This document shows positions 29,391 to 36,642 of a stretch of 64,000 nucleotides of DNA, in pieces (the first letter of the stretch is position 1; each line of letters starts with the position of its first letter). The stretch is from Ohtaekwangia koreensis (GTDB taxonomy: Bacteria > Bacteroidota > Bacteroidia > Cytophagales > Cyclobacteriaceae). The DNA lies in the NCBI RefSeq assembly GCF_900167975.1, contig NZ_FUZU01000003.1:248001-312000 (forward strand). The letters are read 5' to 3'. The notes under the pieces are model-generated. The model did not search any database and was not told the DNA's origin. It was given only the letters and a program-made list of their open reading frames with translations. The position numbers and the translations under genes are program-made.

Positions 29391-30023
29391 ATGGTAAAGA
29401 TAGCCGTACTTGATGATCACGCCCTGTTCAGAATTGGCTTAATGACTCTTCTCAAAGAAGAGCCACGTTTTGAAATAACAGGCGAATACAAAAGCTTCAA
29501 TGCTATAAAACCATATGTCTCAACACTTGATGCACACCTGGTGCTTGTAGACATCTCTCTTAATAAACAAGCAGGCTTCGATGTCGCCAGCTATATCAAA
29601 GTACATAATCCCAACATCCGGATAATTATACTTACCCTGTTAAAAGAAGAGTGCCACATCATGAATGCTATGGAAGCTGACATTGACGGCTATATCCATA
29701 AAGACTCGGAACCTGAAGAAATCCTTTCGGGGATAAACAGAGTGTTAGAAGGGGAGAAATTCTATTCACTCGAAATATCCAATCTGCTGATCACAAACCT
29801 TCATAAAAGAAATTTCAGAGGACTCCCCTTCCTTACCACGAAGGAAAAACAAATTATCAGGTATCTGATGGAGGGAAATTCAAGTAAAGAAATAGCGGCC
29901 ATGCTTGATGTGAGTCCGCGTACCATCGATACGCACCGCGCGAATATACTTGGCAAGTTCAACCTGAAGAATACAACCGAACTGGTGACAAAAATAGCCG
30001 AGCAAAAAATCCGGATCTCCTGA
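29391..30023 (+). CDS. Orphan LuxR/FixJ-type response regulator
   Basis: A 210-aa two-domain regulator: a receiver (residues about 3-120) with acidic DD pair at 8-9, phospho-acceptor Asp in VLVDIS (about residue 53) and the conserved Lys in HKDSEP; and a C-terminal LuxR helix-turn-helix (FLTTKEKQIIRYLMEG, SSKEIAAMLDVSPRTID). No histidine kinase gene is near, so its partner is elsewhere. A near-match TATATTTA to the -7 consensus ends 5 bases before the ATG, suggesting a very short leader. Confidence 0.9.
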   Translation: MVKIAVLDDHALFRIGLMTLLKEEPRFEITGEYKSFNAIKPYVSTLDAHLVLVDISLNKQAGFDVASYIKVHNPNIRIIILTLLKEECHIMNAMEADIDGYIHKDSEPEEILSGINRVLEGEKFYSLEISNLLITNLHKRNFRGLPFLTTKEKQIIRYLMEGNSSKEIAAMLDVSPRTIDTHRANILGKFNLKNTTELVTKIAEQKIRIS

Positions 30024-30684: not shown

Positions 30685-33615
30685 ATGAACATGAAAACAG
30701 TTCTACCATTACTACTAGTCATTGTATGTATTTTACCAACCCTGGCCCAGGAATCTAAAATAACAGGCAAAGTATCGTCCACTGTCGATGGTGCTCCCTT
30801 ACCCGGTGTGAGTGTTATCCTGAAAGGTGATGCCGGCAAGGGTACACTTACCGATGCACAAGGTATATATACCATCACCGCGACACCGAATGATATATTG
30901 GTGTTCTCTTTCATCGGCTTCAAAACGAAAGAAGTTAAAATAGGATCGGAAACAACCATCGATGCTCCTCTGGAGGAGACCTTAAATGAGTTGAGTGAAA
31001 TAGTTGTTACCGGCACACGAAGCGTGGGGCGCACGGTGCTTGAAACACCTGTGCCTGTAGACGTGATTCCAATCCAGGATATTATGGGAGAGCTTCCGCA
31101 AATAGACCTCGCGCAAATGCTCGCTATACTTGCTCCAAGTTTCAATGCAGTGCGGTCGCAAGGCGGTGATCTTGATTCTCACGTTGATCCGGCTCAGCTC
31201 AGAAACCTGGCGCCTAACCAGACACTCGTACTGGTGAATGGTAAACGAAGACATACTTCTTCCCTTCTCATTATTACAACTGCCGTTGGAAGTCCTTCTA
31301 CCTCTGTGGATCTGATGACTATACCAGCCTCTGCTATAGAAAAGGTGGAGATCCTTCGCGATGGTGCAGCAGCACAGTATGGCTCCGATGCAGTCGCGGG
31401 TGTAATCAATATAGTATTGAAAAAAGGTACTGATAAACTTACCGGAAGCTTTACCGGTGGCGGATACCTGAACTCCGGAGGCGATGCCGGTAGTCTGACT
31501 GACAAGGGTAATCCGGATGGGTATAATTATCAGTTGACGGCAAACTATGGATTCTCCCTCGGTGCGAAAGGATTCATTAATCTTTCCGGGGAGCTCACAC
31601 AACGGAGGCCAACACTACGTCCTTTTGTAAACGACTGGGAAGTATATGACGCCACCTATCTGAATAATGAACGAACGGATAAATATGGCAATCCCGTCAT
31701 TACAAATCCTGAGCTCATTGCTGCCTTGGGAAGCGGTAATGAAGCACTGGCCTCTTCTGTAAAAACATCTGAAGGATTGATGGCTGCACGTGGCCTGGAG
31801 CCTGAAGACTTCGCAGTATATGCTGGTATGCCGGCTATAACATTGGGAAGTACATTCTATAACGCGGAGTACGCATTAAGCCCCACCACTACCTTATATG
31901 CCTTCGGAGGTATATCTTATAAATTCCTGGAAGGATATTCGTGTTATTTCAGAAGGCCCGCACAAACCGATCGCTTTAATTATTTACTATATCCCAATGG
32001 ATTCAGACCACAGATGACTTCCAACACCGCGGATTACTCTTCTACGATCGGACTTCGAAGTAAAGCAGGGCTGTTCAATATGGACTTCAGCAATACGTTC
32101 GGTAGAAATAAAATGCGCATCGGTATGGTGAATACTTTCAATGCGTCACTCGGTTCTAATTCACCGGTGGAAATGAATCTGGGTACACACCAGTTCTCGC
32201 AAAACACTACAAACCTTGACTTCTCACGTAACTTCAAAGATATAGCGCATGGACTAAATATAGCCTTCGGTGCTGAAATGCGCGTGGAAAATTACAAGAT
32301 CCTGAAGGGACAGGAAGAAAGTTATACCACGGGAGATGCCGGTACATTAACGATCACACAAGATGGACTTTTAGTGGGTCCCGATGGAAAACCCCTGGAA
32401 GATGGCAGCAGCACTCCTATTGTTGATGCGAATGGAAATCCGGTAGCAGTACAACGTGGAGACCAGGTCATCATAAAATCACTGGCATCCAATTGCCAAT
32501 GCTTTGCAGGATTCGGTCCTAAAAATGAACGCGATGAGTATAGAACGAACGTTGCTGCGTATATAGATGCTGAGCTTGAGCTTTCTGAAGCTCTACTTAT
32601 AGCAGGCGCAGCGCGTGTTGAAAATTACTCTGACTTCGGAGGAGTCGTTACCGGTAAATTTGCAGCGCGATATTCTATACTTAAGAATCTTTCGCTTCGC
32701 GGATCGATTTCCAGCGGATATAGGGCACCCTCTTTACAGGAACTAAACTATACACATACCGCTACCGTATTCCTCCCGGATCAGAATGGCGTACCACAGC
32801 CCGTTGACTATACTACCTATCCTACCAACAGTACAGCGGCACGGGTACTGGGCATCAAAGAGCTTTCCCAAGAACGCTCCAAGAGTATAGGAACAGGCCT
32901 CACCTATCAACCTATCATTGGCTTTGAGATCACCGTTGATGCCTATCAGATCGATGTAAAGGACCGGATTTTCAGAACGAACAGCTTCAATGCTGCTGAG
33001 GTTGGCAATAACTACGATGAAGTAATCGGAGCACAGGGCGAAGCGCAGTTCTTTGTGAATGGAGGTAATGTACGATCAAAAGGTATAGAGCTCGTGGGTA
33101 ATTATACTACAAGCCTTACCGGCAATTCTCAGATCAACATAAACCTGGCGGCTATATTTAGCAAGAACGAACTTATCGATACCAAGGTGGTCGATCTGAA
33201 TGTTGAGAACCTGACAGACGAACAACTTGTTGAGAAGTATTTGAACCGATCTGTTATAGGTCAGTTTGAGACGGGTACACCCCGCACAAAACTGATCGGT
33301 TCTGCAAATTACCGCTTCGGAAAGTTCTCTTCTATGTTCCGCGGTACCTACTATGGAAGTGTTACTGAACTTTCAACCGTTTCCGATGCCAGCGGAGTAT
33401 ATTATGATCAAACTTTTTCGGGACAGACTATATTTGATATGAGCATCAGCTACGACCTTACCATGAACCTAAAACTGTCTGTTGGCGGCAACAATATATT
33501 TGACAAGTACCCAGACATCATGCGAGAGGAGAACAGAGGTTTCTACCTGTACTCCAACAGCCAGCAAGGTTCCAATGGCGCATATTACTACGGACGGATT
33601 TTATTCAACTTCTAA
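30685..33615 (+). CDS. TonB-dependent receptor with carboxypeptidase-like N-terminal domain
   Basis: A 976-aa outer-membrane transporter. After a signal peptide ending LPTLAQ come a CarboxypepD_reg-like beta-sandwich (about residues 25-105, SSTVDGAPLPGVSVILKGD), a plug domain (about 110-240, ending with IEKVEILRDGAAAQYGSDAV) and a 22-strand barrel ending in YGRILFNF with terminal Phe. A TonB-box-like stretch LSEIVVTGTR precedes the plug. No SusD partner follows, so it is more like a small-molecule receptor than a glycan SusCD pair. It heads a run with a lipoprotein, a Tat-exported aminotransferase and a permease. Confidence 0.92.
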   Translation: MNMKTVLPLLLVIVCILPTLAQESKITGKVSSTVDGAPLPGVSVILKGDAGKGTLTDAQGIYTITATPNDILVFSFIGFKTKEVKIGSETTIDAPLEETLNELSEIVVTGTRSVGRTVLETPVPVDVIPIQDIMGELPQIDLAQMLAILAPSFNAVRSQGGDLDSHVDPAQLRNLAPNQTLVLVNGKRRHTSSLLIITTAVGSPSTSVDLMTIPASAIEKVEILRDGAAAQYGSDAVAGVINIVLKKGTDKLTGSFTGGGYLNSGGDAGSLTDKGNPDGYNYQLTANYGFSLGAKGFINLSGELTQRRPTLRPFVNDWEVYDATYLNNERTDKYGNPVITNPELIAALGSGNEALASSVKTSEGLMAARGLEPEDFAVYAGMPAITLGSTFYNAEYALSPTTTLYAFGGISYKFLEGYSCYFRRPAQTDRFNYLLYPNGFRPQMTSNTADYSSTIGLRSKAGLFNMDFSNTFGRNKMRIGMVNTFNASLGSNSPVEMNLGTHQFSQNTTNLDFSRNFKDIAHGLNIAFGAEMRVENYKILKGQEESYTTGDAGTLTITQDGLLVGPDGKPLEDGSSTPIVDANGNPVAVQRGDQVIIKSLASNCQCFAGFGPKNERDEYRTNVAAYIDAELELSEALLIAGAARVENYSDFGGVVTGKFAARYSILKNLSLRGSISSGYRAPSLQELNYTHTATVFLPDQNGVPQPVDYTTYPTNSTAARVLGIKELSQERSKSIGTGLTYQPIIGFEITVDAYQIDVKDRIFRTNSFNAAEVGNNYDEVIGAQGEAQFFVNGGNVRSKGIELVGNYTTSLTGNSQININLAAIFSKNELIDTKVVDLNVENLTDEQLVEKYLNRSVIGQFETGTPRTKLIGSANYRFGKFSSMFRGTYYGSVTELSTVSDASGVYYDQTFSGQTIFDMSISYDLTMNLKLSVGGNNIFDKYPDIMREENRGFYLYSNSQQGSNGAYYYGRILFNF

Positions 33616-33628
33616 CCTGTAACAGCTG

Positions 33629-34129
33629 ATGAAAAATTTACTTCTTACAACGACCCGGATGATGTTTATACTTATACCGGCTCTTCTATACTTAACCGCA
33701 TGTGAGCAAGATAATGTTGAACCTGAGCTAAACACCGCTCCGGGAGGTGGCACACTTTCGGTATACAAGGCCTATACTCTTAACGCTGTACAGGGAAATA
33801 TAGAGGGACGTATTGTATTCTGGAAAGACAATGCTAAAAATACACTGGTGCAGGTTTCGCTGTATAATACTACCAGCGATAAGTTTTATCCTTCCGGGAT
33901 CTATAGCGGGAAAGCGGAAGATGCTTTGCTGACCGAGCTGCAGCCCCTATACTCTGTCAACGGCAGCACCGGTGAATTTGGAACTTCTAAATTCTATGTC
34001 ATTACCAGCAAAACATTTTTTGATGAGCTTGAAGAGTACGATGCACACGTGAAGATCTTTCTGGAGTCGAGCGTGATTGCTGCAGGTGATATAGGAGAAA
34101 ATGCTACCCCGGTAGCGGCCAGTGAATAG
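33629..34129 (+). CDS. Lipoprotein linked to the TonB receptor, unknown
   Basis: A 166-aa lipoprotein: signal peptide with lipobox ending ALLYLTAC (C25), then a mature domain of about 140 residues with beta-strand character (NIEGRIVFWKDNAKNTLVQV, YSVNGSTGEFGTSKFYVI). It starts 13 bases after the receptor stop, so it is surely co-transcribed, and could be a surface or periplasmic substrate-binding partner. I do not recognise its domain. Confidence 0.78.
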   Translation: MKNLLLTTTRMMFILIPALLYLTACEQDNVEPELNTAPGGGTLSVYKAYTLNAVQGNIEGRIVFWKDNAKNTLVQVSLYNTTSDKFYPSGIYSGKAEDALLTELQPLYSVNGSTGEFGTSKFYVITSKTFFDELEEYDAHVKIFLESSVIAAGDIGENATPVAASE

Positions 34130-34171
34130 AAAACCAACTCAACAATATATTCCACCAAACAAACCAGTAAC

Positions 34172-35356
34172 ATGACAACACCGGGTATTAGTAGAAGAAC
34201 ATGGCTGAGACAGAGCGCTGTCACTGCAGGCGGCATTGTAACCAGTCTTGCATTGCCGGGCACCATCGAGGCGAAACCTGCCTTTGGGATGAAGCCCTAT
34301 AAAGGACAATATCATCTGCTCGAACAATATCATATTGCTCCTTCGGATATGGAAAACCTGAAGGCGCGCTTGCTGGCAAATGAAAATCCGTGGGGACCTT
34401 CAAAGAAAGCAGTCGCGGCCATTGCAGAAAGTGCCAGTAAAGGCAACCGGTATGTATATAAAAGCTGCCTGAAGATGATCGAGATCCTGGCGCAAAAAGA
34501 AGGTGTTGCTCCGGAGAATATACTCCTGGCACCGGGATCAACCGATGTACTTGAGAAAGTAGCATTCGCGCTTTGTATGAAAGGCGGCAATGTAATTTCA
34601 GCAGATCCTTCCTATATGTCGCTGGTAAATACAGCCACGTCTATTGGTGCTACCTGGAAAAATGTACCGCTTCGCGCGGACTATGCGCACGACCTAACTG
34701 CCATGGCCGGCGTTGTCGATGCTGATACCAAACTGATATATATCTGTAACCCAAACAACCCTACCGGTACATTAACGCCTATTGAAGAGATCAAGACCTT
34801 CAGCAGAAAGGTGGCTTCCAAAGCTCCTATATTTATCGATGAAGCTTACCTCGAGCTATTGGATGAACCCGACAAGCAGACTGCCGTTGGCCTGATCAAG
34901 GAAGGACATGATGTGATCATCAGCAGAACTTTCTCGAAGATCCACGGTATGGCCGGATTACGGATCGGGTATATGGTGGCAAAACCGGAACGTGTTAAAA
35001 TGATTCAGGACTTGGTGCGTACTGAAATGGGCATCAGCATTACCTCACTCGAAGGTGCGCTCGCCAGTATGAACGATATAGAGTTTCAAAACTATACACG
35101 CACCAATAACAAAAAGAACCGCGAGTACGTTTTTGCCGAGCTTACAAAAGCAAAAATGAATCCTATACCTTCCTATACCAGTTTCATTCTCTTCCCGATA
35201 CAAATACCGGTAAAGGATATGATGGCAAAGATGCTTGAAAAAGGCGTAGGTATACGGGGATACGATATACACGGCAAGCCGTACGGCCGCGTTAGTATGG
35301 GCACCATGGATGAGCTCAAACTCTTTGTGAAGACTTTGAATGAAATTGTGAGTTGA
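34172..35356 (+). CDS. Tat-exported class I/II PLP aminotransferase (HisC-like)
   Basis: A 394-aa enzyme of the histidinol-phosphate aminotransferase-like branch of fold-type I. The N-terminus is a twin-arginine signal: ISRRTWLRQS (RR at residues 8-9), then a weakly hydrophobic stretch ending LPGTIEAKP. The catalytic fold is intact: NPNNPTGT (193-200), FIDEAYLE with the pyridine-N Asp, and the PLP lysine K256 in SRTFSKIHGMAGLRIGY. Tat export implies folding with PLP in the cytoplasm and action in the periplasm. It is placed between a TonB-receptor lipoprotein and a permease. Confidence 0.88.
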   Translation: MTTPGISRRTWLRQSAVTAGGIVTSLALPGTIEAKPAFGMKPYKGQYHLLEQYHIAPSDMENLKARLLANENPWGPSKKAVAAIAESASKGNRYVYKSCLKMIEILAQKEGVAPENILLAPGSTDVLEKVAFALCMKGGNVISADPSYMSLVNTATSIGATWKNVPLRADYAHDLTAMAGVVDADTKLIYICNPNNPTGTLTPIEEIKTFSRKVASKAPIFIDEAYLELLDEPDKQTAVGLIKEGHDVIISRTFSKIHGMAGLRIGYMVAKPERVKMIQDLVRTEMGISITSLEGALASMNDIEFQNYTRTNNKKNREYVFAELTKAKMNPIPSYTSFILFPIQIPVKDMMAKMLEKGVGIRGYDIHGKPYGRVSMGTMDELKLFVKTLNEIVS

Positions 35357-35406
35357 TAGCAATCATTCTACACGGTATATAGCCGTTCTGAAAGAGGCAC
35401 ACCGCA

Positions 35407-35434
35407 CCGGCATGAGTATATATACTCATGCCGG
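35407..35434. promoter_or_regulatory. Perfect 28-bp palindrome
   Basis: Half-site CCGGCATGAGTATA is followed immediately by its exact reverse complement, with the axis between 35420 and 35421. It lies in the 140-base gap between the aminotransferase and permease genes. No U-tract follows. It could be a dimer/tetramer operator or, as RNA, a strong hairpin that alters expression of the permease relative to the upstream genes. Confidence 0.75.
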
Positions 35435-35496
35435 CCGCGAGGGTGTTGAAGAAAGATCTTCCTGCATCAATCACCAACAATTCACCGATACTAATT

Positions 35497-36642
35497 ATGA
35501 GTTCTGCCACCACAAAAACCATATCATTATTATTGCTTATTGTTATTGGCTATCTCTTTCGTAAAAAGATAAAGAATAAAGATCAGCGCGAAGGAATCAA
35601 GACCTTGATCCTGAGCCTGGCGCTGCCCGCGACTATATTTATAGCCTTACTGCAGATCGATTTCAAATCTGATCTCATCATCATTCCAATCTTGTCGTTA
35701 GGATTCAATATCGTTATGCATTTGCTGGTTGATAAGCTGCCCTTGCGTTCCGTCTTTCACATTCCGTTAAATCAGTATCGCACGCTCATCATGCTGATCC
35801 CTTCGTTGGCACCGGGGCTGTCATGCTTTCCATTCATCATGGAATATAGCGGACAAGGCCCGCTGGCAATGGCAGCATTGGCTGATGTTGGTAATAAGAT
35901 CTTCGTGCTCATCATCTCCTATACCATTGCCATGAAATGGTATTTTGAAGTCAACAAAGAGAGTGCGCCCAACCAGAATAACAAAGTAAAAGATCTGCTG
36001 CTATCCTTGCTGAATGAGCCGGTAAACCTGGTCATTCTTACAGCGGTTGTAATGCTGTCGCTGGGACTTTCGTATGCTACTTTCCCTGAGTTTATACGCC
36101 TGAGTATAGATCGACTGAGCCTGATGATGACTCCATTGGTATTATTATTCATCGGACTCTCCATGCGGCTCACGTGGGACCAGGTGCGCACTATATTTTC
36201 ATTTCTTTTCTTCAGGTCTGGTATAGCATTCCTGATCAGTGCATTGTTATTATACTTTTTCCCGGTAACAGATATACCTACCATCCTGCTCATGGTTGTT
36301 TTCCCACAAAGCGCCTGTAGCTTCTGGCCGTATGCGCATATGGCAGCCGTTGGACAGATGGAAAGTAAATCTTCAGACAAGCCTATATCGAGAACATTCG
36401 ACCTGGACTTTGCTATGAATGTACTGGCGTGTTCGATGCCATTCTCCGTTATCCTTATCCTGATCATTTACGCCTCCGGAAGTTTCTTCGCGGTTACCTC
36501 GAATATATTTATATGTTCAGGAGTGTTGCTGACGATGGCCGTGCTGGTAGTGGTATTCTCTTCACGCATGATCGCTGTCTACAAAACAAAGGCAATGGAG
36601 ATCGCTCCCAGCGTAGAGAATGGAGAGAAGGCTGCAGGATAA
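35497..36642 (+). CDS. AEC-family (auxin efflux carrier-like) permease
   Basis: A 381-aa inner-membrane protein with about 10 helices in two similar halves, matching the AEC family that includes malate permeases (GYLFRKKIKNKDQREGIKTL and LILSLALPATIFIALLQI at the N-terminus, IGLSMRLTWDQVRTIF in the second half). I chose ATG 35497; an in-frame start at 35428 lies inside the 28-bp palindrome and adds no helix. It is last in the receptor-aminotransferase run and may carry the keto-acid product or the imported substrate across the inner membrane. Confidence 0.82.
   Translation: MSSATTKTISLLLLIVIGYLFRKKIKNKDQREGIKTLILSLALPATIFIALLQIDFKSDLIIIPILSLGFNIVMHLLVDKLPLRSVFHIPLNQYRTLIMLIPSLAPGLSCFPFIMEYSGQGPLAMAALADVGNKIFVLIISYTIAMKWYFEVNKESAPNQNNKVKDLLLSLLNEPVNLVILTAVVMLSLGLSYATFPEFIRLSIDRLSLMMTPLVLLFIGLSMRLTWDQVRTIFSFLFFRSGIAFLISALLLYFFPVTDIPTILLMVVFPQSACSFWPYAHMAAVGQMESKSSDKPISRTFDLDFAMNVLACSMPFSVILILIIYASGSFFAVTSNIFICSGVLLTMAVLVVVFSSRMIAVYKTKAMEIAPSVENGEKAAG

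Follow-up and report, generated by a model that had tools for sequence, protein, structure and literature searches.

Why would a TonB-dependent receptor share a run of genes with an aminotransferase that carries an export signal and with a permease? The question was raised by four genes in a 64,000-nucleotide stretch of DNA, here called the window, which is situated on contig 4 of the 7.24 Mb genome of Ohtaekwangia koreensis. All on the forward strand, they encode a TonB-dependent receptor of 976 amino acids (30685–33615), a lipoprotein of 166 amino acids that begins after a gap of 13 bases (33629–34129), a HisC-like fold-type-I pyridoxal phosphate (PLP) aminotransferase of 394 amino acids with a twin-arginine translocation (Tat) signal (34172–35356) and a permease of a divergent subfamily of the auxin efflux carrier (AEC) family (35497–36642). 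A first-pass annotation of the window had described this run, including the double arginine at residues 8–9 and K256 of the enzyme, and our analysis bore it out. We lean, with modest confidence, towards an operon for periplasmic transamination that is fed by a dedicated outer-membrane importer, in which we infer the substrate, the amino acceptor and the direction of transport.

A conserved enzyme–permease pair

The enzyme and the permease are a fixed pair, far beyond chance. Among 148 genomes of the window's family, Cyclobacteriaceae, the permease was matched 53 times, in 52 genomes, and a same-strand aminotransferase stood just upstream of 51 of these matches, at a gap of 5 to 284 in match coordinates. 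One of the two unpaired matches, in G002, is a contig fragment, and the other fragment there does adjoin the enzyme; the second, in G114, is a 23% match. Named genomes yielded 364 relatives in a scan; the best 80 were retained, and counts over these 80 named loci are hence biased to close kin. In 79 of them the enzyme lies directly upstream of the permease on the same strand; the sole unpaired locus, L171, starts at a contig end. One enzyme class accounts for 77 of these pairs, and a second class replaces it beside the permease in the other two (L175 and L177, together with L139 and L140 of the same genomes).

A check of other Bacteroidota for the complete four-gene order had been suggested at first pass, with its loss in relatives as a refuting outcome. 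This outcome did not occur: the order is kept in 7 of the 148 family genomes, counting that of the window, and 24 of the 80 named loci show it too, for example those of Arenibacter, Maribacter, Cellulophaga, Fulvivirga, Marinoscillum and Dawidia. The same order occurs in Cytophagia and in Flavobacteriia at about 35–55% identity to the window proteins.

Interchangeable outer-membrane modules

What precedes the pair is variable. The window-type receptor and lipoprotein are found in the 24 named loci mentioned above, and 26 of the 80 have SusC, SusD and another lipoprotein on the same strand instead. In 8 further loci, from Cyclobacterium and Lunatimonas, the same SusC/SusD/lipoprotein set, together with a second Tat-aminotransferase, faces the enzyme–permease pair. 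These classes were assigned by hand from a tblastn-based gene table, with L183 placed in the SusC/SusD class by its lipoprotein alone, where the contig ends. Receptor plus lipoprotein and SusC/SusD plus lipoprotein are interchangeable outer-membrane modules before the same pair, an exchange that, like the gene order, is observed in the sequences themselves. The four genes had initially been taken as one unit; this unit is conserved, but the gene set has proved wider, since the receptor and lipoprotein half is one of two modules. Because this half is interchangeable, the enzyme and the permease appear as the core, and the importer would set the form in which the substrate is captured.

Going by the labels of the records, the receptor type is present in Cytophagia, Flavobacteriia and two doubtful metagenome-assembled genomes (MAGs), and Cytophagia and Saprospiria have the SusC/SusD type. 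The uncultured-MAG records L168 and L169 bear the doubtful genus labels Bacteroides and Chitinophaga, and the label of the "Rickettsiales" MAG L235 is probably wrong. On a permease tree, which was built by a quick method and carries a long-branch warning, the two module types need 4 switches. The nearest named kin of the window permease in this tree, two MAGs of doubtful label aside, are Dawidia soli and Parachryseolinea silvisoli. L194, whose genes were missed by the gene caller and found by tblastn, was left out of the tree and of the Tat-motif count given below.

The window receptor (Pfam PF00593, PF07715 and PF13715) has barrel and plug domains and an N-terminal carboxypeptidase-regulatory-like domain. 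An assignment as SusC was ruled out by its score against TIGR04056 (111.9 bits, cut-off 368.25), and a Pfam search of the window lipoprotein gave no SusD match. In the alternative module, the receptor is a true SusC (664.6 bits over the same cut-off) and its partner matches SusD-like_2 with 310.7 bits. The window locus resembles SusC/SusD (RagA/RagB) loci in that a TonB receptor and a lipoprotein stand ahead of an enzyme gene, but it differs from them in both of these proteins and in an enzyme that is of the PLP type with a Tat signal rather than a hydrolase.

The window lipoprotein has the lipobox LTAC and no Pfam family above cut-off. Its Cys25 is invariant and a GGGTL motif is conserved across an alignment of 23 sequences. 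The structure model, with a predicted local distance difference test score (pLDDT) of 84.7, is a predicted beta-sandwich that weakly resembles the Cu/Zn-SOD fold; as the best match had an E value of 0.011 and none was at or below 0.001, we claim no function for this protein and set aside the idea that it is an enzyme. Common ancestry of the two lipoprotein types was also considered and rejected, for a profile comparison aligned the signal region alone. A strongly conserved motif, ELDKSGILDxxxGIDSIPV, is common to the small lipoproteins of the SusC/SusD type, and the one that was tested had no Pfam family. Distant relatives of the window lipoprotein (for example G083:C1, G080:C68 and G044:C157) gave several matches in succession in single frames of ~600–650 codons, apparently tandem repeats, outside the operon.

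It might be argued that an uptake gene pair came to lie by chance before a conserved enzyme–permease pair, and that the two are independent neighbours without a joint pathway. In agreement with this, neither module stands on the expected side in 22 of the 80 named loci, a class that takes in some loci by contig end, such as L171, and a few with SusC on the opposite strand (L178, L195, L209 and L231), and in G132 the receptor and lipoprotein are located on a different contig from the pair. However, a close lipoprotein (43% identity or more) was found in 9 family genomes, and in 7 of these it lies directly before the enzyme, on the same strand and at a spacing of 38–66 bases in match coordinates. 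Moreover, the order is shared by Cytophagia and Flavobacteriia despite the sequence divergence given above, and two different importers were recruited to the same place. We hence regard a chance neighbourhood as very improbable.

The enzyme and its export signal

The enzyme matched PF00155 with 151.6 bits. Its double arginine is part of the sequence SRRTWLR, which is followed by a hydrophobic stretch, and the Tat signal that had been proposed for it was well supported in its relatives. The full motif, RR-x-hydrophobic-hydrophobic-[KRQ], was present in all 86 called enzyme open reading frames (ORFs) longer than 340 amino acids from the named loci. A twin-arginine motif was likewise found in 39 of the 39 enzymes called after 40 family loci had been fetched, and TatC is encoded in the same genome. 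An RR close to the N-terminus is seen in the genome's own hisC too, without a hydrophobic stretch: mean hydropathy of the 15 residues that follow is −1.29 after this chance RR and +1.08 after the Tat motif of the 86 enzymes. An RR alone is therefore weak evidence and it is the conserved full signal that counts; with its hydrophobic stretch, it rules out a chance RR in the enzyme. The claim of intact catalytic residues held as well: N196, D223, Y226, K256 (within SFSK), R264, R362 and R373 were invariant across 25 aligned sequences, and so were R8 and R9 of the signal.

Might the gene simply encode a mis-annotated cytosolic HisC? The enzyme shares with HisC its fold and catalytic residues and reaches 242.3 bits against the hisC model TIGR01141, but it stays below the cut-off of 276.55 and has a Tat signal. 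A canonical hisC is found elsewhere in the genome, with 367.8 bits against the same model, and lies on contig 6 in a complete his operon with HisG, HisD, IGPD, GATase, two His_biosynth and PRA-CH/PH. As the cell has its own hisC within this operon, the Tat-signal enzyme is not its HisC, and together with the conserved Tat motif this rules out the mis-annotation, a possibility that the first-pass annotation had raised itself.

Among the best 25 of 91 family matches, the enzyme reached no curated NCBIfam cut-off. Its best match was the PRK09105 subfamily (NF006580; 258.6 bits over residues 5–392, cut-off 444), with hisC and PtaA (NF051461; 212.4 bits, cut-off 500) also leading, and the top seven matches were all aminotransferase families. 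Lesser matches were CobD (137.7 bits) and GntC (113 bits). The nearest solved structure, 3ly1, is of a putative enzyme.

Single Tat-exported periplasmic PLP enzymes are already known from Pseudomonas. As described in PMC6206403, PtaA, a transaminase of pyoverdine maturation, is exported by Tat with its PLP and is active in the periplasm, and PvdN is a Tat-exported PLP enzyme of unusual chemistry. PtaA is like the window enzyme a HisC-like PLP transaminase that is exported by Tat with its cofactor and works in the periplasm, the export of the window enzyme being predicted from its signal. The window enzyme differs by its low score against the PtaA model, by its fixed place beside an AEC carrier and by its frequent position behind an outer-membrane importer. 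It had been stated at first pass that no system of this composition was known. Among the open-licence papers listed, by their titles and the beginnings of their abstracts, we found no operon that joins a TonB receptor or SusC/SusD with a Tat-aminotransferase and an AEC carrier; the combination of enzyme, permease and importer thus seems to be undescribed, whereas its central element, the exported PLP enzyme, has precedents.

HisC-like folds include decarboxylases and cyclodehydratases, as in CobD and GntC, and the name aminotransferase is hence a family inference. The exported PLP enzyme might catalyze another reaction, such as decarboxylation, elimination or cyclodehydration, with the permease exporting or importing the product. 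The matches to CobD and GntC and the unusual chemistry of PvdN are in line with such an activity. With aminotransferases in all seven best matches and the usual catalytic residues invariant, we nevertheless consider a different reaction distinctly unlikely.

A divergent AEC-type permease

The permease passes PF03547 marginally (27.7 bits, gathering cut-off 25.7), and with 33.4 bits against TIGR00946 it does not reach the cut-off of 246.05. A profile search at E values up to 0.1 gave no solved relative. In an AlphaFold model (pLDDT 82.7), however, the best folds in the Protein Data Bank (PDB) were LYCHOS and the plant auxin carriers PIN8, PIN3 and PIN1, and all 33 matches at E values up to 0.001 were to LYCHOS/GPR155 or to these carriers. 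The match to PIN8 had an E value of 2.6e-5 and template modeling (TM) scores of 0.63/0.74. The PIN-type predicted fold thus backs up the marginal AEC call by sequence, and the permease models as a PIN/AEC-type carrier. It is like other AEC/PIN carriers in both respects, but unlike typical AEC proteins it belongs to a divergent subfamily that carries an APGL[ST]CFPF motif. AEC/PIN proteins transport organic anions.

The gene had been listed as an AEC permease at 35428–36642. Its family stands; its start is very probably at 35497 (MSSATT). In an alignment of 27 sequences, 24 of the 26 homologues start at a methionine aligned with 35497, and the listed start falls within a perfect palindrome of 28 bp (35407–35434) between the enzyme and permease genes; on both grounds we moved the start. 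A genome search that allowed up to 3 mismatches found the palindrome, a possible mRNA stem-loop, at this one site, which rules out a dispersed repeat. By eye, L168 and L169 have similar imperfect hairpins with paired base changes in the corresponding position, and L170, L172 and L207 have other stem-loops.

Substrate and proposed mechanism

How might these parts work together? In the operon that we favor, the receptor and lipoprotein would carry an amino compound, most likely an amino acid or a short peptide-like molecule, into the periplasm. The enzyme would fold with its PLP in the cytoplasm and then be exported by Tat, in analogy to PtaA and PvdN. Once in the periplasm, it would act on the amino group, exchanging it with a keto compound as second partner, a chemistry that its family and the intact catalytic residues suggest. 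The predicted AEC carrier could then take an organic acid, either the keto product or an exchange partner, over the inner membrane.

The genomic context of the relatives points to amino acids or peptides as the substrate. Upstream, and in the opposite orientation, 16 of the 80 named loci have an Lrp/AsnC-type gene, of which one member was tested; 15 of these genes belong to the 24 window-type loci, where they are divergent from the receptor. Lrp/AsnC-type regulators typically respond to amino acids. Of the 26 SusC/SusD-type loci, 16 have a FecR-like gene upstream in the same orientation, and an M14 carboxypeptidase-like gene adjoins in two genomes, in front in L141 and behind in L142, which is on the same contig as L204. 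Neighboring genes of the compared loci were mostly clustered rather than annotated, and biosynthesis genes nearby are therefore possible.

Sister loci give a further clue. We compared 20 further loci with other Tat-aminotransferases, beyond the 80 named permease loci, and in 6 of them (L257, L258, L261, L262, L264 and L268) a flavin amine oxidase-like gene lies directly upstream of a second-class Tat-aminotransferase. The L261 flavoprotein, the one that was compared with solved structures, matches over nearly its full length (residues 42–519, E 1.4e-107) the L-amino acid oxidase 2jae of Rhodococcus opacus. Both N-termini that were read, those in L257 and L261, carry twin-arginine signals, and L261 and L268 also have the SusC/SusD/lipoprotein set. 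The oxidase in such loci could supply keto acids as the amino acceptor. It is paired there with the second aminotransferase class and not with that of the window, in which we found no flavin oxidase match at E values up to 1e-8. Pairs of different Tat-aminotransferase units that face each other, of which the first is accompanied by the permease and the second by SusC/SusD, occur in L191, L197, L206, L216, L217, L219, L225 and L236; facing units are also seen in L134, L135 and L153, which are partly from the same genomes as named loci.

An alternative to nutrition is tailoring. The enzyme would then modify a single group of a particular metabolite, either imported or on its way out, such as a siderophore or another chelator, as PtaA does on pyoverdine, with the permease handling the partner acid. 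PtaA provides a precedent, and its model does match the window enzyme. Furthermore, the solved relatives nearest to the window receptor are siderophore and colicin receptors, in the plug region only, and an iron-chelate substrate would hence fit too. Nevertheless, the PtaA match is far under its curated cut-off, and both the SusC/SusD alternatives and the sister loci with an amino acid oxidase indicate a nutrient class of substrate. We hence judge tailoring to be rather unlikely.

Several observations weigh against importer-fed periplasmic transamination, among them the iron-chelate option, the family-based name of the enzyme, the named loci without either module and the split arrangement in G132. 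In G136, the receptor and lipoprotein are kept and the permease is absent. Just 7 of the 51 family pairs have the window-type receptor and lipoprotein; as the family receptor search scored 5 candidates per genome, the absence of a receptor in this count was judged chiefly from the lipoprotein search and the fetched loci. Across the phylum, permeases of this type are uncommon: at E values up to 1e-15 they were matched in 9 of 395 sampled genomes, one of which is that of the window. The weakest point of the mechanism is the amino acceptor: a periplasmic acceptor is unaccounted for in window-type loci, and in the 20 further loci 14 are without the oxidase gene and 16 without a SusC match.

A NarL-type response regulator (29391–30023, forward strand; Pfam GerE and Response_reg) is encoded upstream of the window receptor. 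It is a tentative part of the locus and a possible regulator of the receptor module. Such a regulator also lies upstream of the receptor in the near relatives L168, L169, L170 (same genome region as L117) and L172, and in L137 it adjoins the receptor even though receptor and lipoprotein are split from the enzyme–permease pair.

Beyond the window, we may speculate, tentatively and with more doubt than conviction, on a modular extracytoplasmic deamination in Bacteroidota. Exchangeable outer-membrane importers would feed Tat-exported PLP aminotransferases, some of which would have an AEC carrier dedicated to keto acids as their sole partner and others an L-amino acid oxidase that is exported as well. 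Amino groups would be split off in the periplasm, so that mostly carbon skeletons would cross the inner membrane.

What is known of uptake loci in Bacteroidota concerns mainly glycans and peptides. If our reading of the window is true, soil and marine members of the phylum would couple amino-nitrogen chemistry to outer-membrane nutrient capture outside the cytoplasm. This raises the question of where a periplasmic transaminase obtains its amino acceptor, and the sister oxidase loci suggest that keto acids may be made on the spot. It would also give a function to genes that sequence models put near histidinol-phosphate aminotransferase and auxin efflux carrier.

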